From Rhodopseudomonas palustris (GTDB lineage Bacteria > Pseudomonadota > Alphaproteobacteria > Rhizobiales > Xanthobacteraceae), in NCBI RefSeq assembly GCF_034479375.1, contig NZ_CP140155.1, positions 2,294,001-2,358,000 of the forward strand: a stretch of 64,000 nt of DNA, read 5' to 3'. The notes beneath the pieces were generated by a model that worked only from the letters and a program-made list of their open reading frames with translations, ran no database searches and had not been told where the DNA came from. Shown here one piece after another: positions 1,454 to 14,622 of this stretch. A program made the position numbers and the translations under genes. Position 1 is the first letter of the stretch. Each line of letters opens with the position of its first letter.

Positions 1454-1688
1454 CGCAAGCCTGACCGTGCCCCGTGGATGGTGCGCGAGGTGTAACACGG
1501 CGGGGGTTCCGGGCAACGAGGGCTTGGGTCCGGATGTGGATATGTCGTAAACCGGGCAGGAAAACCGGCCGCAGCGCGCGCACGGCACGCCGGCTGCGTG
1601 GCTGTGGCAGCACAATGTGGCCCGGCCGGTTGGCGTCGGCTGCGAAAGTCCCTATTTTCCGCAGCAACCCAAACAACTCGCGAATCGC

Positions 1689-3308
1689 ATGGCCCGACTG
1701 CTCGCTCCCGACACGCTCGTCAATGTCGCCGAATTCACCGTCTCCGAGCTGTCGCAGGCGCTCAAGCGGACGGTGGAGGACACCTATGGGCACGTCCGCG
1801 TGCGCGGCGAGATCTCCGGCTTTCGCGGCGCGCATTCGTCGGGGCATTGCTATTTCGCGCTGAAGGACGAGAGCGCCAAGATCGAGGCGGTGATCTGGAA
1901 GGGCGTCGCCGGGCGGATGCGGTTCAAGCCGCAGGAGGGCCTCGAGGTCATCGCCACCGGCAAGCTCACCACCTATCCCGGCTCGTCGAAATATCAGATC
2001 GTGATCGAGGCGCTGGAGCCCGCCGGGATCGGCGCGCTGATGGCGCTGATGGAAGAGCGCAAGCGCAAGCTCGGCGCCGAAGGCCTGTTCGACGAGGCGC
2101 GCAAGCAGCTCTTGCCGTGGCTGCCGGAAGTGATCGGCGTCGTCACCTCCCCCACCGGCGCGGTGATCCGCGACATCCTGCACCGGCTCGAGGACCGCTT
2201 CCCGCGCCGCGTGCTGGTGTGGCCGGTCAAGGTGCAGGGCGAAGGCTCGGCCGAGCAGGTCGCCGCCGCGATCCACGGCTTCAACGCGCTGCCCGAGGGC
2301 GGCCCGATCCCGCGGCCGGATCTGCTGATCGTCGCGCGCGGCGGCGGCTCGCTGGAGGATCTATGGTCCTTCAACGAGGAGATCGTGGTTCGCGCCGCGG
2401 CCGAGAGCATGATCCCGCTGATCTCCGCGGTCGGCCACGAGACCGACGTGACGCTGATCGATTTCGCCGCCGACAAGCGCGCGCCGACGCCGACCGCCGC
2501 GGCCGAAATGGCCGTGCCGGTGCGCGCCGAATTGTTCGTCGAGGTGCAGAGCTACGCGCGGCGGATGATGCTGTGCTGGACCCGCGGCCAGGACTCGCGC
2601 CGCAACGAGTTGCGCGCCGCCGCCCGCGCGCTGCCGGCGGCGAGCGAACTGCTCGCGATCCCGCGGCAGCGGCTCGACGGCGCATCGGCCGGGCTGCCGC
2701 GGGCCCTGCGCGCCAACACGCATGCGCATCATCGGCGCTATGCGCGGGCTGCGGCGGGCATCACGCTGAATGTGCTGCGCGCGCAGGTCGGCCACAGCGC
2801 GCAGCGGCTCGGCATCACCGGCGAGCGGCTGCGCCATTGCACCCGCGCGACGCTGCGCCATCGCCGCGACCGCTTCGAAGGGTTGGCGATCCGGCTGCAG
2901 GCCTCGAAGCTCGCCAACGAACAGGCGCAGCGGATGCGGATCGCACGCGAGCGCGAACGGATGCTCCGGCTCGCCGAGCGCGCACGGCGTGCGCTGGCCA
3001 CCCTGCTCGATCGCCAGCAGGCGCGCGTGACCCAATCAGGCAAATTGCTCACCGCTCTGTCGTATCGCGGCGTGCTGGCGCGCGGCTTCGCGTTGGTGCG
3101 CGACGCCGGCGGCCACGCCGTCCACGCCGCGGCAGCGGTGAATGCCGGCGCGCAGCTCAGCGTCGAGTTCGCCGACGGCCGCGTCGGCGTCACTGCCGAT
3201 GGCGGCGGGTCGACGAGATCCGAAGCTTCGAAGCCCTCCTCGGCCCCCTCCTCCAAGCCGGCGGCCAAGCGCGTATCGAAGCCGATAGACCAGGGCTCGT
3301 TGTTCTAG
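1689..3308 (+). CDS. xseA: exodeoxyribonuclease VII large subunit
   Basis: XseA is the catalytic subunit of exonuclease VII, which degrades single-stranded DNA to oligonucleotides during repair, together with several small XseB subunits (not in this window). An N-terminal OB-type domain (roughly residues 10-110) includes [20 protein letters not shown]. It is followed by the family signature [14 protein letters not shown] and a long Arg-rich, probably coiled C-terminal region. At 539 residues it is longer than the E. coli protein; the extra length is in the C-terminal part. The ATG at 1689 was preferred because the homologous region ([12 protein letters not shown]) follows closely; an in-frame ATG at 1617 would add 24 residues. 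Confidence 0.93.
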
Positions 3309-3560
3309 AGCTGGAAAATCGATCTTCGAAATCGTGATACGATTTTGTCGTTTAGGAATGAGCTTTCCGAAAGCCGCCGTGCACGTTTGGGGTCGATTGC
3401 TTCGGCAATAGGCTCACGCTGCAGAAAACCAGTCCGTGACACCAAAACTTCGACCCCCCGAAATAGTCATCCATAAGCCATTGATATTATTGATTTGTTC
3501 CTCGACGTTGAAAAACCTCGCTAGCGAAGGTAGTATTATTAATAAATTAAGCAGTGTGAC

Positions 3561-5066
3561 ATGAACGATATCAAGGCCATCCTAGCTACCCACGGCCCGA
3601 GCCGATCGTCTCTTATAGCAGAGCATCTGCAGAAGCAGCTCGGCATCAATGCCGATGCGGCGCGAAAACGCCTGTCGCGAGTGTCGAAGCCTATCGTCCG
3701 TTTTCCCATCCCTCTTTTGCCCAAGCGTGAAGCTTTTCTTTACCGGCTTCCTGATCGCAACACTGAACGATTCTGGACGAATTTTCATCGCGACCTGCGC
3801 GCGACAAACTCGGTCTACGGTGCCGCTATCGACGGTGTGCTTGCCCGGGGTGGCACAGTTCTTAAGGAGGACTTCTCTGTTATCAGCGGAGCACCGATTG
3901 CGCAGAAAGGACAAATTTCTGCAGACCGCGTCGCGTCCCAGTTGGTGGATGCCGGTTTTCTCACCGCATTTGATTTGCCAGAGAGCTGCTATACGGCCGC
4001 TAGGGCTGATGCGGTTGGCTCGGCGAACCGTACTGCCCGTTCGCTCTCCGAAGGCGTTCTGCTCGATGCGCTTCGCGAATGGGCGCGCAAGATTGGTCTC
4101 GCCAGTTATAGTTCAATCGCCATTCGTGGCGATGCTCGAAAGCCGCAGGTCGGCCCGTTCGTGTGGGACCTATCAGGTCCCAGTTATTTGATGCCGCTGC
4201 GCAACGGTGATTCAAAGCCGGGCTTCTTGGTGGCTGACGTATTTGCCGATGGACGGCTGAATGAGTTCCACATCCGATATTTCATTCGCAAGGCTCGGAT
4301 GTCGAAGGCTGCGCTGAATGGTACGGGCATTTTCCCAATTTTGCTGGCAGAATCATTCACGTCCGCAGCGCTGACCGAAGGACATAAAGCCGGTGTTGTG
4401 CTGGCGACACACGAGAACCTCTTTGGCGGGCGCGTTGCGCAGTCAATTCGTAGTCTTGTGAAGACGCTCAATGATGCCGCCGCCATGGTGTCCGGCTATC
4501 CGGAGCGACTTGAAGAATACATTCACGAACTATCTTCGATCGAAGGTAAGGCCGGCAATTTGCGCGGCATTCTCTTTCACCTGCTCTCGGCGCATCTTCT
4601 GCGGCGTTCTGCGGTGTCGATCGATATAGGCATAAGCGCGTATGATGAAAAGACTGGTAAACGCGGAGATATCGACATCATCGCCATAACAGAGCAGTCA
4701 GCATCCTGTACGCTTGTCGAATGCAAGGGCAAACAGCCGGGTGGTGTTGTCGAAATCGACGAGGTCGAGGACTGGCTGCGGCGTATTCCGACGTTCAATG
4801 CTTATCTCCAAAGCCATCGAACGCTTCGCGAGGCCGACCGGCGGTTCGAGCTGTGGACATCAGGCACATTCAGCGTAGATTCGGTTCAGTTGCTCGAGGC
4901 AGAAAAAGTCAAACGGACGCGGCTCCCCATCGATTGGAAGGACGGCCAGCAGGTTCTGGCGCTTGCGCGCTCAGGCAAACAGAAGGTTATCAAGGACACG
5001 CTGTTTGAGCATTTCTTGCGCCACCCGCTCGCTGAGATTGCGTCCGACATGGAGGCTGCTGAATAA
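3561..5066 (+). CDS. lone PD-(D/E)XK-type nuclease-like protein, possible defence gene
   Basis: This 501-residue protein has no family I can name. Residues 1-60 look like a winged-helix/HTH domain with a basic segment (AARKRLSR). Near the C-terminus, GDIDII (Asp370, Asp372) is followed 15 residues later by VECKGK (Glu387, Lys389), the D-x(n)-E-x-K pattern of restriction-endonuclease-fold enzymes, and a helix before it holds Glu328. Residues about 160-290 look like a second, degenerate domain of similar type. No signal peptide or membrane segment is seen. The gene and its flanks are visibly AT-richer and use more T/A-ending codons than neighbours, suggesting transfer. It stands alone between xseA and a hydrolase gene. 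A role in restriction or phage defence is inference only. Confidence 0.8.
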   Translation: MNDIKAILATHGPSRSSLIAEHLQKQLGINADAARKRLSRVSKPIVRFPIPLLPKREAFLYRLPDRNTERFWTNFHRDLRATNSVYGAAIDGVLARGGTVLKEDFSVISGAPIAQKGQISADRVASQLVDAGFLTAFDLPESCYTAARADAVGSANRTARSLSEGVLLDALREWARKIGLASYSSIAIRGDARKPQVGPFVWDLSGPSYLMPLRNGDSKPGFLVADVFADGRLNEFHIRYFIRKARMSKAALNGTGIFPILLAESFTSAALTEGHKAGVVLATHENLFGGRVAQSIRSLVKTLNDAAAMVSGYPERLEEYIHELSSIEGKAGNLRGILFHLLSAHLLRRSAVSIDIGISAYDEKTGKRGDIDIIAITEQSASCTLVECKGKQPGGVVEIDEVEDWLRRIPTFNAYLQSHRTLREADRRFELWTSGTFSVDSVQLLEAEKVKRTRLPIDWKDGQQVLALARSGKQKVIKDTLFEHFLRHPLAEIASDMEAAE

Positions 5067-5140
5067 TTCTTAGAACTCTGCTCTTTGACGCCAAAAATTG
5101 ATATGATGGAATGCTCGACCATCTAGACTAGATTTGCCAC

Positions 5141-5968
5141 TCACCGCCCGAGCCAATGCGATACCCGCCTTTCGGCATCGCTGCGCGCGGCCGCATCGAA
5201 GCCGCGATGGCCCTGCTCAGGCACTTCCGGATCGTCGGCGCCGGCGAGATGCGGCGTGACGCCGGCGTGGTCGAAATCGTGATCGGCGCCGGGATAGACC
5301 ACGATCCGCGCCAGCGCGCTGCGGCCGCGGGCGCCGTCGATCATCGCCCGGCAGGCCGAGGCCGAGCTGATGGCGTCATTGCCGCCGATCAGCACCAGCG
5401 TCGGCACCCGTGCACTCCATCCGAGCCGCGCCGAGATCCGGCAATCCGGATAGAACGCGATCGCCGAGCGGAACTCGGGCTCGCCGCTGGCGGACACGGT
5501 TTGCGGGCGCACCGCCCACAGCAGCGCGCTCGCGCCATTGTCCCAGCCGATCAGGCCGATGCGCTGGCGCGCGACGAAGGGCTGCTGCGCGAGCCAGTGC
5601 CGTGCGGCGGCGATGTCCGCTAGGCGCTCGCGCCGCGCCAGCGAGCGGCGGCCCCGGGCGTCGCACTGAGGACCGAGACCGCGTGAACCGTAACTGTCCG
5701 GCAGCAGCACGGCATGGCCGGATTTCAGCAATTGTCTGGCCCAATCGGCGTAGCGTGGCCTGATGGCGCCGGACCTGCCGACCAGTCCACCGCAGCCATG
5801 CAAGGCGACGACCGCGGGAAACGGACCGTCGCCGTGGGGCCTGAACAGGAATGCGCTGAGCTTGCCCTCCGCCGCCGAAATATTCACGATTTCGGGCGCG
5901 GGCGCCGCCACGGCGGCCTGCCCCGCGGCGAGCAGAACCGCAATCGACAGAAACAAAGGCAGGCGCAT
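5141..5968 (-). CDS. secreted dienelactone-hydrolase-family alpha/beta hydrolase
   Basis: A 275-residue protein starting MRLPLFLSIAVLLAAGQAAVAA, a clear Sec signal peptide, so probably periplasmic. The mature part has the alpha/beta-hydrolase oxyanion loop LHGCGG, a nucleophile-elbow sequence GWDNG at 141-145, an acid candidate Asp198 in GGND, and His230 in GADHDFD. The family normally has Cys or Ser at the elbow; here it is Asp143, as in haloalkane-dehalogenase-like enzymes, so the reaction may differ. The open frame runs upstream to 6247, but the signal peptide fixes the start at 5968. Substrate unknown. Confidence 0.85.
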   Translation of the reverse strand: MRLPLFLSIAVLLAAGQAAVAAPAPEIVNISAAEGKLSAFLFRPHGDGPFPAVVALHGCGGLVGRSGAIRPRYADWARQLLKSGHAVLLPDSYGSRGLGPQCDARGRRSLARRERLADIAAARHWLAQQPFVARQRIGLIGWDNGASALLWAVRPQTVSASGEPEFRSAIAFYPDCRISARLGWSARVPTLVLIGGNDAISSASACRAMIDGARGRSALARIVVYPGADHDFDHAGVTPHLAGADDPEVPEQGHRGFDAAARSDAERRVSHWLGR

Positions 5969-6161
5969 TGCACAGGTCCAGGCGGTAATCCCGGTCGGCC
6001 GGCGAGCGCCCACCGCAATACAGATTATCATGCGCCAGAACTGCGATTTCATCACAAGTCGGTGGTTTGCAACGCCGCTCATCCGTTCTATCTGTGGGAG
6101 ATATCGACCGCGAGCGGCCGGGGCAACGCCTCGCCGCATGCGGTATCTCAGGAGATCAGCC

Positions 6162-6389
6162 GTGCTGAACAAATTTGGCCCCTCGGGCTCGGGCGAAGCG
6201 CAGGTGCAATACCTCGACGGAGATTTCCGCGTGATCTCTCCGGGCACCTATGTCCGCTGCGCGGTGACCGGCGTGCAGATTCCGCTCGACGAGTTGAAAT
6301 ACTGGAGCGTCGATCTCAAGGAAGCCTACGCCACGCCGATCGCGGTGCTGCAGCGGCATTATCCCGAGGCGGCGAAGCCGCTGATCTGA
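6162..6389 (+). CDS. DUF2093 small protein
   Basis: A 75-residue cytoplasmic protein of the DUF2093 family, known from alphaproteobacteria and of unknown function. Its sequence contains QYLDGDFRVISPGTYVRCAV followed by LDELKYWSVDLKEAY, which I recognise as this family. The start is GTG at 6162 because AGGAG lies about eight bases upstream; an in-frame ATG at 6138 has no such site. It stands between the divergent hydrolase gene and the convergent methyltransferase gene. Confidence 0.85.
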   Translation: MLNKFGPSGSGEAQVQYLDGDFRVISPGTYVRCAVTGVQIPLDELKYWSVDLKEAYATPIAVLQRHYPEAAKPLI

Positions 6390-6420
6390 CGGCCGGGCAA
6401 ACCGCGGGCTCGATTTCCGT

Positions 6421-7146
6421 TCACGCGACGGGCCGTCGCGCGGTGGCGACGTATTGCGCGCCGAGCGGCAGCCTGCGAATCGCGTGCTCGATCTTGCGGA
6501 CCGCTGCGTTCTCGAACGGCGTGAAGAAGATGTACTCGATCTCCGGCGGCGCGAAGCCGGCTTGCGCCAGCAGCGCGCGCGCCGTCGGCGCGCTGAGCAG
6601 CACCGCGTCGTGATCGAACGCGCAGCGATGCACCGCCAGCCGCGTCAGCGGGTTCCACGGATTGTGCTCGCAGATCACCAGCGCCCCGCCGGGCCGCAGC
6701 ACCCGCAGCGCTTCTTCGAGAAACCCGACCCATTCGGCGACGGCGACGTGGTGGACGACGCACACCGTGACCGCCAGATCGAAACTCGCATCGGCGAACG
6801 GAAGCGTGCGGCCGTCATAGAGCTGATAGTCATTGCCCGGATGGCGCTGTCTGGCGATGTCGAGCGGCGTCGGGCTGACGTCGACGCCCGAGACCTCGCA
6901 GACCGATGGCGGCAGGAAGCCGTGGATCAGCCCGGGGCCGCAGCCGATATCGAGCAGCCGCGCTGGTCGCCCCAGGCCGAGGCTCTTCACCTTCTCGATC
7001 ACCTTGTCGGCCTTGCCGCGGGTGAAGAACGACTGGTCGAGGCCCGAGAAATTGATCGACTGGTTCACCTCGGGCGCGTAGTCCGGATAGGGATCGCTGG
7101 CCCAGCGCGAGGCGGCGCCGTCGTTGCGGTCGGGACTGCTGGTCAT
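6421..7146 (-). CDS. class I SAM-dependent methyltransferase
   Basis: This 241-residue protein has the class I methyltransferase motifs: LLDIGCGPGLIHG (motif I), VSGVDVSPTPLDIA (motif II) and LPFADASFDLAVTV, followed by VLRPGG. It is the last gene of a translationally coupled trio: its ATG overlaps the stop of the upstream membrane-protein gene (ATGA). With a polyprenyl-phosphate glycosyltransferase and a GT-C-like membrane protein as partners, a role in modifying a lipid-linked or envelope glycan is likely. The substrate cannot be read from the sequence. Confidence 0.88.
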   Translation of the reverse strand: MTSSPDRNDGAASRWASDPYPDYAPEVNQSINFSGLDQSFFTRGKADKVIEKVKSLGLGRPARLLDIGCGPGLIHGFLPPSVCEVSGVDVSPTPLDIARQRHPGNDYQLYDGRTLPFADASFDLAVTVCVVHHVAVAEWVGFLEEALRVLRPGGALVICEHNPWNPLTRLAVHRCAFDHDAVLLSAPTARALLAQAGFAPPEIEYIFFTPFENAAVRKIEHAIRRLPLGAQYVATARRPVA

Positions 7147-8501
7147 CGCGCATCTCCCTGTGGGCTTTTCATCCAGCCGATCGAGAAGCCCCCGACCCGG
7201 TCGACCGGCGTCACATCCGGCCGCGACGTGCGGCCGACCACCAGCACCGGCCGCGATAGGCCGCGGATCTGCGGCGCGATCTCGGCATCCTCGGGCAGCC
7301 AGACATATTGATCGGGCGTCGGCGCACCGGGCAACGCCGGATGCGGCCCCAGCACCAGCATGTTCGGCGCCGCGACCCTGCGAATGGCCGCGGCGAGCCG
7401 CGCGTGGCTGTAGTCGCCATTGTACAGCATCAGCGCCAGATAGCTCGCGAGATGAAACGCCAGCAGCGGCAGCAGCGCCGACGGCCGGATCCGCAACGCC
7501 AGCAGATAGAACGGCACGAAGATCCAGACGACGTAGAGATAGCTGCCGCGTCCGAGCAGTTCCAGCAGCACCACCGCCAGCACGATCTGCAGGATCGGCT
7601 CGCGCGCCTCGTTCCAGATCTGCGGCAGACTCCGGGCGTGGAGCATGATCGCGCCGGCGAGGCCGATGCAGGCCAGTTCCGGCAGATGGCGCTTGTACTG
7701 CGCGTGCCAGAAGTAAGCGGCCAGTGGCGAACGGATGCCGTTGGTGCCCTGCCGGCCGCCGAGATCGTGCAGCCATCGCAGCGACACCATGTCCGGATGC
7801 AGCGCCCAGAACAGCGCCATGCCGAGCACGCCGCCCAGCGCGAGTTGCACCAGCGCGCGCAGGCCCATGCGATCCAGCAGCACGCGCAGCGCGACGAAGC
7901 CGGCGCCGATCACGCCGGTGGCGTGGATCTCCACTGCGAGCACCGCCAGCGCGCCGCCGAGCCAGACCAGGCGCGGCCGGCGCACGCACAGCAAGGCTAT
8001 CAGCGTCGCCGCCAGCGACAGCGTTTCGGCGCGGAGAGAGACCACGCCGCGCAGCACCGGCTCCATCAGGCACAGCACGATCGCCATCGTCAGCGCCGTC
8101 ACCGGACGGTAGTCGAACTCGGCGCGCAGGAAGCCGTAGAACGCGGCGAGGATCAGCAGCAGCCACAATTCGTTGGCGACGAACACGGTCCAGTAGCCGT
8201 GGCCCATCAGCGCATACACCGCCGCGATCAGCGCGGTCGGGATCATCGAGAACACGTAGGTGCCCCCGACCAGGTCGTTCGGATAGAAGAAGCGGTCGGC
8301 GCGGATGCCGTGATCGACCAGATTGACCGCCCAGGAGTAGATCCAGAACGCGTCCATCTCGTTCGGCGTGAACACCAGGAACAGCTTCACCGAGATCGCC
8401 AGCAAAGCCGCCGCAGCGAGCGCCAGCACCGGCGCGCGGCCGGCAAGTCCGATCCAGCGATCCGACGCCGGCGGCGCGGCGGTGAGCGACGCCCCGGTCA
8501 T
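7143..8501 (-). CDS. polytopic membrane protein, possible GT-C-type glycosyltransferase
   Basis: A 452-residue protein with about ten hydrophobic segments and a small hydrophilic C-terminal domain (DQYVWLPEDAEIAPQI onward). The first extracytoplasmic loop contains NEMDAFWIYSW, an acidic motif in the position where GT-C glycosyltransferases (for example ArnT/RgtA-type enzymes) keep catalytic acidic residues. It overlaps its neighbours on both sides by four bases (ATGA), between a dolichyl/undecaprenyl-phosphate sugar synthase and a methyltransferase. It probably uses a polyprenyl-phosphate sugar on the periplasmic face, but no family assignment is certain. Confidence 0.8.
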   Translation of the reverse strand: MTGASLTAAPPASDRWIGLAGRAPVLALAAAALLAISVKLFLVFTPNEMDAFWIYSWAVNLVDHGIRADRFFYPNDLVGGTYVFSMIPTALIAAVYALMGHGYWTVFVANELWLLLILAAFYGFLRAEFDYRPVTALTMAIVLCLMEPVLRGVVSLRAETLSLAATLIALLCVRRPRLVWLGGALAVLAVEIHATGVIGAGFVALRVLLDRMGLRALVQLALGGVLGMALFWALHPDMVSLRWLHDLGGRQGTNGIRSPLAAYFWHAQYKRHLPELACIGLAGAIMLHARSLPQIWNEAREPILQIVLAVVLLELLGRGSYLYVVWIFVPFYLLALRIRPSALLPLLAFHLASYLALMLYNGDYSHARLAAAIRRVAAPNMLVLGPHPALPGAPTPDQYVWLPEDAEIAPQIRGLSRPVLVVGRTSRPDVTPVDRVGGFSIGWMKSPQGDAR

Positions 8502-9502
8502 CGCGCGCCTCCTTCGCGCTCGCGCCGGTCCGGCCGCGCGGCGATGCCGTCGCTCGCGGTCTCGCGAACGATGAATCGCGGCCGCCGCTTCGTCTCCAGA
8601 AAGATCTTGCCGACGTACTCCCCGATCACGCCGAGGAAGATGAACTGCAACCCCTGGAACAGCATCAGCGGCAGCATGATCGAGGCCCAGCCGGGAATCG
8701 ATTGGTCGGTGAACAGTTTGGCCCACAGCGTCCAGAGGCCGAGCAGGAAGGCGAGCAGCGACACCGCGAGACCGATGATCCCGATCGCCCGCAGCGGCGC
8801 CACCGACCACGAGGTGATGCCGTCGATCGCGAAATGCAGCATCTTGCCGAGCGGGTACTTGGTCGCGCCGGCGACGCGGGGCGTGCGCCGATAGGCGACC
8901 TGCGCGGTCTCGAAGCCGAGCCGGTGCACCAGCGCCCGCAGGAACAGGTTGGTTTCCGAATATTGCAGCAGCGCCGCGATCGCGCGCCGGCTCATCAGCC
9001 GGAAGTCGGCGTGCTGCGGCAGGATCTCGGCGCCGAGCAGGCCGAGCAGCTTGTAGTACAGGCCGGCGGAGTTGCGCTTGAACCAGGTGTCGGACTGCCG
9101 CTCGGAGCGGACGCCGTAAACGATGTCGGCGCCGTCGTGATAGCGCGCCACCATGGTCTCGATCGCGTTCGGATCGTCCTGCAGATCGGCGTCGATCGTC
9201 ACCACCATCTCGGCGGTCGAGGCCGAGAGCCCCGCCCACAGCGCCGCCTGATGCCCGAAATTGCCCGACAACCGGATGCCATCGTAGCGCTGCGGTTGCG
9301 ACGCGTGCAGCGCCTCGATCAATCGCCATGTCTTGTCGGAGGAGCCGTCGTCGACGAACAGCACGCTGCTCGAATTCGCGATCGATCCGCGCGCGATGCA
9401 GGATTCGATCACGCCGCAGAGTTGCCGCGCGGTTTCCGGCAGCGCCTCTTCCTCGTTGAAGCAGGGAACGACGATCTGCAGACGATCCACCAATGCCACC
9501 AT
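8498..9502 (-). CDS. GT2 polyprenyl-phosphate glycosyltransferase (ArnC/DPM1-like)
   Basis: A 334-residue family 2 glycosyltransferase of the type that transfers a sugar from a nucleotide donor to undecaprenyl or dodecaprenyl phosphate at the inner membrane. It has VVPCFNEEEALPE at the N-terminus, FVDDGSSD at 49-56 and TIDADLQDDP at 102-111. Two C-terminal membrane helices end in GVIGEYVGKIFLETKRRPRF, the usual end of this class. It is the first gene of a coupled trio. A paralogue of the same architecture lies at 20598-21641. The sugar is unknown; a product used in lipid A or LPS decoration is plausible since lpxK and waaA are next door. Confidence 0.92.
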   Translation of the reverse strand: MVALVDRLQIVVPCFNEEEALPETARQLCGVIESCIARGSIANSSSVLFVDDGSSDKTWRLIEALHASQPQRYDGIRLSGNFGHQAALWAGLSASTAEMVVTIDADLQDDPNAIETMVARYHDGADIVYGVRSERQSDTWFKRNSAGLYYKLLGLLGAEILPQHADFRLMSRRAIAALLQYSETNLFLRALVHRLGFETAQVAYRRTPRVAGATKYPLGKMLHFAIDGITSWSVAPLRAIGIIGLAVSLLAFLLGLWTLWAKLFTDQSIPGWASIMLPLMLFQGLQFIFLGVIGEYVGKIFLETKRRPRFIVRETASDGIAARPDRREREGGAR

Positions 9503-9629
9503 CCCCTGGCGCCTCGGGTTGCGAGGCGGTCTTCACTCGGCGGAAGAGAAACTCTCAATTCAATCGATGAGCACAACCGGCAATGACGGCAGGATCGTCA
9601 AATCGGCCGCGCAGTCAATCGCGGATCGC

Positions 9630-10652
9630 TCAGCTCCGCCGACGAAACCGACCGGCGCGGGCCTGATTGAGCCGTTCGAGCACGAAGCCCCGCCACCTTA
9701 CCGGATCGTCGACCGCCAGCGTCACCGCGAACGGAACGATGGCGCTGCCGAGCGTTGCCGCCGCGGCCCCGATCCGCGCCAGATCCTTCTCGGTCGTCAC
9801 CAGCGTCAGGCCGTCGCGGCGGGCGGTGTCGGCGAGGCTCGCGAGATCGTCCGCCGTAAACGGATGATGATCGGCGAATGCCCGCGCTTCCGCCACGTCG
9901 ATGCCGCTGGCGCGCAGCGTCGCGAAGAACCGCGCCGGGTCGCCGATGCCGGCGAAGGCCAGCACGCGCTGCCCCTGCAGCCGCTCCACCGAGGCCTCGT
10001 CGGGCCGAAGCTGCGCACGCAGGAGGACGCCGCCCTGCGCTGCGATCTGCGCCGCGACGTCATCGGCCGCCGCGCCGTCGCCGATGATCATCAGCGCGTC
10101 GGTGCGTTCGATCTGCAGCGGCAGCGGCGCGCGCAGCGGGCCGGCGGGAAAGACGCAAGCGTTGCCGACGCCGCGCCGGCTGTCGATCACGATCAGCGCG
10201 ACATGCTTGAGCAGCGCCGGATTCTGGAAGCCGTCGTCCATCACGATGACGCTCGCGCCCTGCGATCGCGCCAGCGCCGCGCCGTCGACGCGGTCGCGCG
10301 CCACCACCACCGGCACGCTGCGCGCCATCATCAACGGCTCGTCGCCGACATCCGCCGCGCCGTGGCGTTGCGGATCGACGCCGATCGGTCCGCGCAGCCG
10401 GCCGCCATAGCCGCGGCTCAGCACGACCGGATTTTCATCGAGATCGCGGAGGAGTTGCACCAGCGCCAGCGTCGTCGGCGTCTTGCCGGCGCCGCCGAGA
10501 TGATAATTGCCGACGCAGATCACCGGCACGCCGGCCTCGACGCCGGTCTTGCGCATCCGCCAGGACGTGATTTCGCCGTAGACGGCGCCGAGCGGCAGCA
10601 GCAATCGCGACAGCAACGAAGGAGGCCGGTGCCAGAAGCCCGGCTCACGCAT
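9630..10652 (-). CDS. lpxK: tetraacyldisaccharide 4'-kinase
   Basis: LpxK phosphorylates the 4' position of the lipid A disaccharide at the inner membrane. The 340-residue protein starts MREPGFWHRPPSLLS, has the short N-terminal hydrophobic anchor and the Walker A stretch GGAGKTPTTLAL near residue 60, then VLSRGYGGR and VMDDGFQNP, all typical of LpxK. The start at 10652 overlaps the end of waaA by eight bases, showing translational coupling. The upstream extension of the open frame is waaA in another frame and was discarded. Confidence 0.96.
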   Translation of the reverse strand: MREPGFWHRPPSLLSRLLLPLGAVYGEITSWRMRKTGVEAGVPVICVGNYHLGGAGKTPTTLALVQLLRDLDENPVVLSRGYGGRLRGPIGVDPQRHGAADVGDEPLMMARSVPVVVARDRVDGAALARSQGASVIVMDDGFQNPALLKHVALIVIDSRRGVGNACVFPAGPLRAPLPLQIERTDALMIIGDGAAADDVAAQIAAQGGVLLRAQLRPDEASVERLQGQRVLAFAGIGDPARFFATLRASGIDVAEARAFADHHPFTADDLASLADTARRDGLTLVTTEKDLARIGAAAATLGSAIVPFAVTLAVDDPVRWRGFVLERLNQARAGRFRRRS

Positions 10653-12288: not shown

Positions 12289-13104
12289 TCAACTCGCAGG
12301 GCGATTGCGAAAATGCTCGACGATTCGAGCATGACGATCGCGCCCCGCGGCCACCAGAACGCCGTGCGTGACCTCGGGACGGTTGTAGACGATGGCTTCG
12401 CCCGCGAGGGTTGTTAGTGTACCATCCGCTTCGTGCACGATCAAATCGGCCGCGGCAAGGTCCCAGTCGCGGCTTTGCCCACCTGCGAACGCGACGTCGA
12501 TCCGACGATCGGCGACGCCACATAAACGCAATGCCAGCGAGCCGATCCGCGGAAGAATGTGAGCGCCTTCCGGCAGCGCGAGCCGCTCGATCAACGGTTT
12601 CGGCCCCGCAACTTTGATGAAATCCAGATCCGGGCCGGCGCTCGCGCGAATCGGGAGCCCGTTCAGCGTCGCCCCCGCCCCCCGGGCGGCAAAGAAGAAC
12701 TCCTGACTGACCGGAGCGAATACCGCCGCGAGAATCGGCGAGGCGTTCTCGACCAGCGCCGCGGAGACGCACCAGTCCTCGCGCCCGGCGAGATAGGCGC
12801 GGGTGCCGTCGATCGGGTCGATGATCCAGACCCGCTGGCTGTCCAGCCGCGCTGGATCGTCGGCGCTTTCTTCGGACAGCCATCCGTATTCTGGAACGGC
12901 GGATTGCAGCCGGTCGCGGATCAGATCGTTGACGGCGATGTCGGCCTCGGACACCGGCGACGACGCGCCCTTGGTCCACTCGCGCAGCTTGGTGCGGAAC
13001 ATCGACAGCGCCAGCGCGCCCGCCTCGCGGACCGTCTCGGCCAGCAGCGCGGCGTCGCGCCCTCCGGCTTCGCTATGCCGCGTATCGGGACTAGCGTCCG
13101 GCAA
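12289..13104 (-). CDS. inositol monophosphatase-family (CysQ/BPNase-like) phosphatase
   Basis: A 271-residue Mg-dependent phosphatase of the IMPase superfamily. Metal-binding residues are visible in SEES (77-80) and in IDPIDGTRAYLAG around 95-107, and WDLAAADLIVHEADG near 214 supplies the last metal ligand. It is probably a 3'(2'),5'-bisphosphate nucleotidase (CysQ) or an inositol-phosphate phosphatase; the sequence alone does not decide. The start is TTG at 13104, overlapping the pmbA stop by 14 bases. A later start inside the Ser/Ala-rich N-terminus is possible. Confidence 0.88.
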   Translation of the reverse strand: MPDASPDTRHSEAGGRDAALLAETVREAGALALSMFRTKLREWTKGASSPVSEADIAVNDLIRDRLQSAVPEYGWLSEESADDPARLDSQRVWIIDPIDGTRAYLAGREDWCVSAALVENASPILAAVFAPVSQEFFFAARGAGATLNGLPIRASAGPDLDFIKVAGPKPLIERLALPEGAHILPRIGSLALRLCGVADRRIDVAFAGGQSRDWDLAAADLIVHEADGTLTTLAGEAIVYNRPEVTHGVLVAAGRDRHARIVEHFRNRPAS

Positions 13105-14488
13105 TCGTCAGCCCCTCGATCCGCAGCGTCGGCGCGTTGACGCCGTAGCGGAAGGTCAGATCATTGGCCGGCGTCAGCGTCTTGTACATCTCGATCAGAT
13201 GGCCCGCGATGGTGACCTCGCTGACCGCGTAGGTGCATTCGCCGTTCTCGATCCAGAAACCCGCGGCGCCGCGGCTGTAGTCGCCGGTGACGCCGTTGAC
13301 GCCGGAGCCGATCAGATCGGTGACGTAGAAGCCCTGCTTGATGTCGCCCATCAGCTCGGCCGGACTCATCGTGCCGCCTTCGAGATGCAGATTATAGGGC
13401 CCGGGCGACGGCGACGACGACACGCCGCGATGCGCGTGCCCGGTGGTGGTGAGCCCGAGTTCGCGCGCGGTGGCGCAGTCGAGCAGCCAGGTGGTCAGCA
13501 CGCCGTCATCGACGATCGCGAGTTCCTTGACCGCGACGCCCTCGGCATCGAACGCCTGCGAACGCAGCCCGCGCTTGCGCAGTGGATCGTCGACGATGCG
13601 AATGCCGTCGCGGAACAGCTTGTCGCCGAGCCGGTCCTTGAGGAACGAGGTCTTGCGCGCGATCGCGGCGCCGTTGACGGCGCCGACCAGATGCCCGACC
13701 AGCGAGCCTGCGACGCGCGGATCGAAGATCACCGGCACCTTGCAGGTTTCGACCTTGCGCGGGCCGACCCGCGCCGCGGTGCGCTCGCCGGCGACACGGC
13801 CGACGGTTTCCGGCGACATCAGATCCGCGGCGTGCGGCGCCGTGGTGTATTCGTAGTCGCGCTCCATCCCGGTGCCGTCGCCAGCGATCGCGGTCATCGA
13901 GATGCCGTGGCTGGAGCGCAGGAACGCGCCGTGGAAGCCGGTCGAAGTCACCAGCACCATGCCGCCGATCCCCGACGAGGCGGAGGCGCCGCCCGATTTG
14001 GTGACGCCCTCGACCGCCAGCGCCGCCTGCTCGGCTTCGCGCGCCCGGCGCTCCAGCTCGGCGGTCGACGGGGTCTGCGGATCGAGCACATCGAGCTGCG
14101 GAAAATCGCGGGCCAAAAGCGCCGGATCGGCGAGGCCGACATATTTGTCGTCGGGCGCGACGCGGGCCATCGCCACCGCGCGCTCGGCGAGCTTCGACAC
14201 GCCGTCGCCGGTGATGTCGTTGGTCGAGACCACCGCCTGACGGCGGCCGACCAGCACGCGCAGGCCGACGTCGTCGCCCTCCGAGCGCTCGGATTCCTGC
14301 ATTCGCCCGTCGCGTACTTCGACGCCGTGCGAGACGCCGCGCACCGCGACCGCATCGGCCTGATCGGCGCCGGCGCGCGTCGCCGCTTCGACCAGCCGTT
14401 GCGCCAGTTCGCTCAACGCCGACTGATCGAGCAGGTCTTGATCCCTGGAAGGCGACGACGGCGATCGGACGCTTGGTGAAGAGTTCAC
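13091..14488 (-). CDS. pmbA: TldE/PmbA-type metalloprotease subunit
   Basis: PmbA (TldE) forms a heterodimer with TldD that degrades unfolded or modified peptides; only TldD carries the zinc site. The sequence has the PmbA landmarks VRDGRMQESERSEGDDVGLR, TSFLKDRLGDKLF and, near the C-terminus, SRGAAGFWIENGECTYAVSE. GTG at 14488 is chosen as start since AGGATT precedes it and it gives 465 residues, close to the usual 450; an ATG at 14551 would add 21 unconserved residues. It is the first gene of the minus-strand operon running to lpxK. The tldD partner is not in this window. Confidence 0.93.
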   Translation of the reverse strand: MNSSPSVRSPSSPSRDQDLLDQSALSELAQRLVEAATRAGADQADAVAVRGVSHGVEVRDGRMQESERSEGDDVGLRVLVGRRQAVVSTNDITGDGVSKLAERAVAMARVAPDDKYVGLADPALLARDFPQLDVLDPQTPSTAELERRAREAEQAALAVEGVTKSGGASASSGIGGMVLVTSTGFHGAFLRSSHGISMTAIAGDGTGMERDYEYTTAPHAADLMSPETVGRVAGERTAARVGPRKVETCKVPVIFDPRVAGSLVGHLVGAVNGAAIARKTSFLKDRLGDKLFRDGIRIVDDPLRKRGLRSQAFDAEGVAVKELAIVDDGVLTTWLLDCATARELGLTTTGHAHRGVSSSPSPGPYNLHLEGGTMSPAELMGDIKQGFYVTDLIGSGVNGVTGDYSRGAAGFWIENGECTYAVSEVTIAGHLIEMYKTLTPANDLTFRYGVNAPTLRIEGLTIAGR

Positions 14489-14622
14489 AAACAGAAATCC
14501 TGAGGCTGAAAGCAATGACGGCGGGTCCGGAAACGCATCCCGAGATTTCACAGATGTGCCTGTTCGGCGCGGACTTCAAGCACCTTGCGCGGCGAAGGAA
14601 CAAATCATTGTCGGCTTCGCGG

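Follow-up and report, generated by a model that had tools for sequence, protein, structure and literature searches.

PD-(D/E)XK proteins have been found in new contexts within defence systems validated in Escherichia coli (PMC9519451, PMC13092281). In PMC9519451, a methylase reportedly occurs in only one such system, and PMC13092281 counts 14 PD-(D/E)XK proteins among the DefensePredictor DS systems. The subject of this report is a gene predicted to encode a nuclease of this kind, a called open reading frame (ORF) for 501 amino acids at 3561..5066 on the plus strand of the window, that is, the whole 64,000-nucleotide stretch of Rhodopseudomonas palustris DNA analysed (contig NZ_CP140155.1, positions 2,294,001 to 2,358,000). 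Its product, the nuclease protein, is predicted to have PD-(D/E)XK-type domains like the proteins of these two studies, and no PADLOC model matches it. With moderate confidence, the protein is taken to be a mobile, stand-alone, methyltransferase-independent restriction-type nuclease, predicted to protect its host or carrier plasmid from phages or from other DNA that enters the cell. This is the simplest reading because a predicted nuclease is joined to winged helices that may read DNA, has no methylase of its own, moves as a single gene, and has relatives that often lie beside defence genes.

Each of the closest described proteins differs from the nuclease protein. AF1548 (PDB 1y88), a protein of unknown function, is a 184-residue chain, compared with 501 residues here; identity is 14%, and the remainder of the chain falls outside the comparison. 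The NucS (EndoMS) mismatch endonuclease (2vld, 5gke) resembles the middle of the nuclease protein, whose NucS-like fold nevertheless lacks ExK. NucS is not known to have winged helices. The NucS_C model (PF01939) has no match in the window genome and is not among the Pfam matches of the window protein up to E 5; in 21 genomes it gave one match, below its cut-off. Unlike the type IIS enzymes FokI and Nt.BspD6I, the nuclease protein has an extra nuclease fold in the middle and no methyltransferase was found nearby; the FokI match is not one rigid match, because its root-mean-square deviation is 9 to 11. No methyltransferase model was matched by 47 of the 55 other window ORFs, so that the cognate methyltransferase expected near a type II restriction-modification (R-M) enzyme was not found. 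Nor does one appear in the annotation of a 5.66-kb E. coli plasmid with a relative, although such a gene table can be incomplete. As for the type IV enzymes Mrr, MspJI and AspBHI, neither an SRA nor an Mrr family is present among the protein's Pfam matches up to E 5.

A single-gene insertion in the genome

The 1.8 kb at 3309..5140 separates two convergent genes that almost adjoin each other in several congeners. The segment extends from the stop codon (3308) of the left neighbour (1617..3308, plus strand), presumably the exodeoxyribonuclease VII large subunit gene xseA, to the stop codon (5141) of a convergent gene on the minus strand (5141..6247), called a hydrolase gene in an earlier annotation of the sequence, the original prediction. 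This junction was compared by BLAST in all 15 congeners. The 3' part of xseA is present in all 16 genus genomes searched, and the nuclease gene is found in none of the 15 congeners (weak matches of at most 23 bits were set aside). Both flanks are present and close in five congeners: in G012, the flanks that align at window positions 3312 and 5143 lie 18 bp apart, and the distance is 72 bp in G005 and 142, 109 and 105 bp in G011, G008 and G013, where part of it is unaligned xseA tail. Because the flanks nearly adjoin in several congeners, 3309..5140 is an insertion, and the nuclease gene is a single-gene insertion. Two congeners hold other genes of about 67% G+C between the flanks (0.7 kb in G001, 3.1 kb in G007), indicating that the site is variable in the genus; in the other 8 of the 15, a different stretch follows the xseA flank or the right flank is absent from the fetched stretch. 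The genes at this junction in G007 (L071:503-3619) are, by eye, of transporter, SDR and LysR types; the G001 stretch is L070:606-1326. No target duplication was seen by eye at the insert, and no transfer RNA gene was found in the window.

The gene also stands apart in base composition and codon use. Its G+C content (55.7%) is the lowest among the 56 ORFs called in the window, compared with 70.6% and 68.5% for its neighbours, and its synonymous codon use, with a score of -1.395, is the most deviant of the 40 ORFs scored (the other 39 have a mean of -0.873 and a standard deviation of 0.145). The flanks within the insert are AT-rich, with 44.4% G+C on the left (3309..3560) and, on the right (5067..5140), 40.3% over 5067-5138. 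The left flank contains a σ70-like match (TTGAAA at 3508 and TAGTAT ending at 3536), graded weak because 3200-5250 holds four promoter-like sites on the two strands, compared with a mean of 1.0 in shuffles. The original prediction, made from the letters alone, had described just such an AT-richer gene with odd codon use and AT-rich flanks, and had proposed that it was acquired by transfer. The comparison of this junction that it suggested revealed the empty site in five of 15 congeners, and patchy presence and near-identical relatives in distant taxa (see below) likewise support transfer; a gene of normal composition present at this locus throughout the genus is not what was found.

Domain layout and predicted active site

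The predicted layout of the protein is two winged helix-turn-helix domains, a NucS-like nuclease fold without ExK, and a canonical PD-(D/E)XK nuclease domain. The N-terminus probably holds the two winged helices, the first, itself only probable, at residues 1-62 (3561..3746) and the second at residues 69-152 (3765..4016), where the original prediction had suggested a possible one. No similarity between the two was found with hhalign. The middle PD-(D/E)XK-type fold spans residues 157-288 (4029..4424), and the C-terminal nuclease domain spans residues 314-477 (4500..4991), modelled with low confidence from its start to about residue 340. The presence of two nuclease folds is supported by the predicted structure. 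A search of PDB sequences, with a single sequence or a profile, gave nothing meaningful, and a viral structure library returned generic nuclease matches; a family missing from the VIA-align lists does not count as excluded.

The C-terminal domain is predicted to have the α-β core fold of the PD-(D/E)XK superfamily. Residue D372 (4674..4676) lies in the strand 368-377, and E387 and K389 (E387-C388-K389, 4719..4727) end the strand 382-389, giving the D...(D/E)XK arrangement. Conservation was assessed in 75 close relatives and in a diverse set of 18 rows, which includes E. coli and Vibrio plasmid copies at 28-31% identity. D372 is conserved in 74 of 75 (one N) and 17 of 18 (one V), E387 in all of both sets, and K389 in 75 of 75 and 17 of 18 (one R). 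Thus, the nuclease core with Asp372 and Glu387-x-Lys389 put forward in the original prediction is upheld by predicted fold and by conservation.

The canonical motif is absent from the middle domain, because the strand where ExK would lie, 221-227, reads GFLVADV. Three residues of this domain are nevertheless highly conserved: D203 (4167..4169; 75/75, and 17/18 with one H), D226 (4236..4238; 75/75 and 18/18), and K244 (4290..4292; 75/75 and 18/18), which is located in the helix (239-251) that follows the D226 strand. Elsewhere in the superfamily, in proteins with the RecB motif, an active-site residue is placed on the helix after that strand. A dead scaffold is the simpler reading of the middle domain, and a rearranged D203/D226/K244 site, suggested by the invariance of these residues in 75 of 75 relatives, is a less likely one. 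The second, inactive nuclease-type domain tentatively placed at residues 160-290 in the original prediction is supported as a fold by structure comparison, and is corrected in that its inactivity is only probable; sequence comparison lends it no support (see below). It is also conceivable, if doubtful, that one chain contains two working metal sites, the canonical D372/E387/K389 and a rearranged D203/D226/K244 in the NucS-like fold, whose lysine would have shifted to the following helix. In that case a single molecule, guided by its two winged helices, could cut both strands, and the protein would be a single-chain restriction-like defence enzyme with a layout for which the libraries searched hold no family model. 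Such an enzyme would have spread through Alphaproteobacteria and, on plasmids, among Enterobacteria.

Distribution and transfer of the relatives

Of 149 genomes in the family, 4 have the nuclease, as do 2 of 398 in the phylum; its own genome is counted in both. A scan of a species-genome collection by two peptide patterns, which reaches only relatives sharing those patterns, gave 21 loci in Alpha-, Beta- and Gammaproteobacteria. Weak matches in the window genome and its congeners (18-25 bits, 29-34% identity, residues ~100-231) were rejected as relatives; the one in the window falls inside the ORF 13091-14551, which we take to be TldD/PmbA-like.

Plasmids are a common location. By tblastn, relatives occur in 355 of 72,556 plasmid records (334 at 80% coverage or more), mainly in Klebsiella (185), Escherichia (85) and Salmonella (26), and 192 of the 355 are typed as conjugative. 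In E. coli, at least 80% of the query is covered in 64 of 5,426 genomes for a first version of the protein, whose 77 places (some merely a piece of a transposase) comprise 72 on plasmids and 5 on chromosomes; a second version occurs in 5 of the 5,426 genomes, with all 7 places on plasmids. Among the E. coli copies, some are split or have an insertion sequence (IS) within them. The relative is the only large annotated gene of one E. coli plasmid of 5,658 bp, which also has a Rop gene.

Sequence divergence indicates recent transfer of relatives between distant taxa, because synonymous divergence (dS) is 0.010-0.018 among the Devosia, Brevundimonas and G028 copies and 0.041-0.054 between these and Paracoccus. 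The unit transferred in Paracoccus, Devosia and Brevundimonas is a cassette with type III R-M genes. For the pair L010/L011, nonsynonymous divergence (dN) is 0.0189 and dS is 0.162; their ratio, close to 0.12, speaks for selection on the protein.

Records from several Sphingopyxis species (L013, L014, L015, L016 and L018) have at least 9,763 bp in common, 98.7-99.98% identical to L013, in which the nuclease gene is near the end of the common segment. Strain H053 carries two copies on one contig. The segment looks like a recent mobile one. A Novosphingobium relative (L029:8001-8456) has a stop within its first 152 codons and is possibly decayed.

Neighbours of the relatives

The functional reading rests on the context of relatives because the protein is covered by no model of Pfam, NCBIfam or PADLOC. 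Sixteen non-redundant genome loci were compared (L010-L013 and L019-L030), leaving out L014-L016 and L018, which are copies of the L013 block, and L017, which is 3.4 kb. Neighbouring ORFs were called by a simple script rather than a gene finder. A pooled PADLOC scan covered 120 ORFs in 11 loci, listing 25 of the 180 families matched without the ORF concerned; single ORFs were also scanned, 20 with PADLOC and 20 entries with Pfam, some of them the same ORFs. L024, L026 and L027 were covered by one or two ORFs each, and L029 and L030 by none.

A known defence system adjoins the relative in 7 of the 16 loci. These neighbours are SoFic, a SIR2-type Argonaute (Ago)-associated protein and a short prokaryotic Argonaute (pAgo) in L010; a TIR-type Ago-associated protein and a short pAgo in L024; GajA and GajB in L019 and GajA/GajB-like proteins in L020; and type III R-M in L011, L012 and L026. 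The L010 and L024 Ago pairs are presumably SPARSA and SPARTA, respectively. Since L011, L012 and L026 carry related cassettes, the seven loci represent five independent contexts. A control scan of 47 of the 55 other window ORFs gave matches to 3 PADLOC models, compared with 180 for the 120 neighbours of relatives, a result that gives a direction and not a ratio because the models are redundant. Elsewhere, a full-length chromosomal relative in E. coli, 30% identical to the window protein and 46% to the E. coli plasmid form, adjoins mrr and a type I R-M system, another E. coli copy has HEPN, SIR2 and ATP-binding genes beside it, and others again adjoin genes of these kinds or DUF4238 genes. The annotation shown for some other plasmid copies contains no known defence gene.

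Further arrangements were seen around the relatives. In L024 (4874-9506), the relative comes immediately after the TIR-type Ago-associated gene and the short pAgo gene and runs in the same direction, possibly as part of a three-gene unit. The cassette of L011, L012 and L026 (~3000-9930), found in Paracoccus, Devosia and Brevundimonas, has a common right end at ~9,930-9,937, and the L011 and L026 Mod proteins diverge from each other in a central part. In the enterobacterial loci L031, L032, L036 and L037, a DUF4238 gene and a small ORF, annotated once as korC, come after the relative and run in the same direction, a possible three-gene operon; L037, from E. coli XJW9B263, is a chromosomal copy in an IS26-rich region with annotated aac(3)-IId and fosA3. 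Other neighbours are a HEPN/polymerase-beta-type gene at a distance of two genes in L013, a RES-domain gene in L023 and an integrase gene in L027; a reverse-transcriptase gene near the relative in L021 was left out of the defence count. A search for a constant partner gene found none in the loci examined.

Proposed mechanism and competing explanations

In the mechanism proposed, the winged helices would hold duplex DNA, the middle fold would contact DNA or make a dimer, and the C-terminal domain would cut, using D372, E387, K389 and a metal. Since host DNA cannot be cut freely, recognition would have to be conditional, the trigger being a modification of the DNA, an unusual structure or a phage product; conditional cutting is also suggested because a host tolerates a small Rop-type plasmid on which a relative sits without a methylase.

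Several observations weigh against a defence nuclease of this design. No Pfam, NCBIfam or PADLOC model matches the protein; the original prediction had associated its possible layout with no named family. The best matches, 14.8 bits in Pfam and 13.3 bits in NCBIfam, are below the curated cut-offs, as are PDDEXK_11 (E 0.22) and DUF234 (E 0.06), which lie over the nuclease motif; Myb_DNA-bind_8 picks up two of the 75 relatives and DUF234 one (E 0.0029-0.01). In PADLOC-DB 2.0.0, no family is matched at E <= 5 by the window protein or at E <= 1 by five relatives. The first winged helix has a weak match, the structure model has low-confidence stretches at residues 291-340 and 211-220, and hhalign finds no sequence similarity between the middle and C-terminal nuclease folds. 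No adjacent known system was seen in 9 of the 16 loci, most of which were not scanned gene by gene, and the context is biased by the related cassettes of L011, L012 and L026 and by redundant PADLOC models. In the window, PADLOC found no defence gene near the nuclease gene among 47 of the 55 other ORFs. The restriction-like or defence role originally proposed is favoured by the context of relatives and not by the neighbours in the window. Relatives are absent from 50,697 phage records (tblastn) and from viral contigs (scanned by two peptide patterns), although many defence genes occur on prophages. Finally, the youngest pairs (L011/L012/L026/L039) have dN/dS of 0.19-0.47 on few changes, which is not strong purifying selection, and dS relative to the window gene is saturated, at 2.7-3.0 where computable.

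The best rival to defence, though rather improbable, is a weapon or maintenance factor of plasmids and mobile elements, which would cut competing plasmids or incoming conjugative DNA, or stabilise its own replicon, rather than act on phages. It is favoured by the 355 plasmid records and the 192 conjugative plasmids among them, by partition, ccdAB or replication genes nearby in several plasmids, by the plasmid location of the E. coli matches, and by its absence from the searched collections of phage records and viral contigs. It accounts less well for chromosomal single-gene insertions such as that in the window, and for genome loci that adjoin anti-phage systems, a counterpoint softened by the fact that plasmids are among the targets of some short Argonautes. 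Since no sensor domain is predicted besides the winged helices, and no constant partner was found in the loci examined, it is unlikely that the protein is a toxin-like effector, an abortive-infection nuclease that would degrade host DNA once triggered, alone or with a neighbouring system.

Far less probable is a selfish freestanding endonuclease, or a part of a self-spreading transposition or homing mechanism. The single-gene insertion between xseA and the hydrolase gene would suit it, as would the tyrosine-recombinase-like genes beside the relative in L022 (below the Pfam cut-off), the integrase of L027 and the discrete right end near 9,930 shared by L012, L026 and L011; yet contexts vary from locus to locus and the empty site is kept in 5 of 15 congeners. 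Least credible of all is a decaying remnant without present function in the window: the early stop in L029 and the split or IS-interrupted E. coli copies suggest that relatives can decay, but the window copy is intact and keeps its predicted catalytic residues.

Implications

If the stand-alone defence reading is true, the gene would represent a compact (501 amino acids), one-gene, methylase-free defence nuclease with relatives on hundreds of sequenced plasmids, which the defence and domain libraries searched (Pfam, NCBIfam, PADLOC) have missed. Its paired folds would show the reuse of a motif-less nuclease fold inside a nuclease, and the family would shed light on how phages or rivals are kept at bay by plasmids and the cells that carry them.
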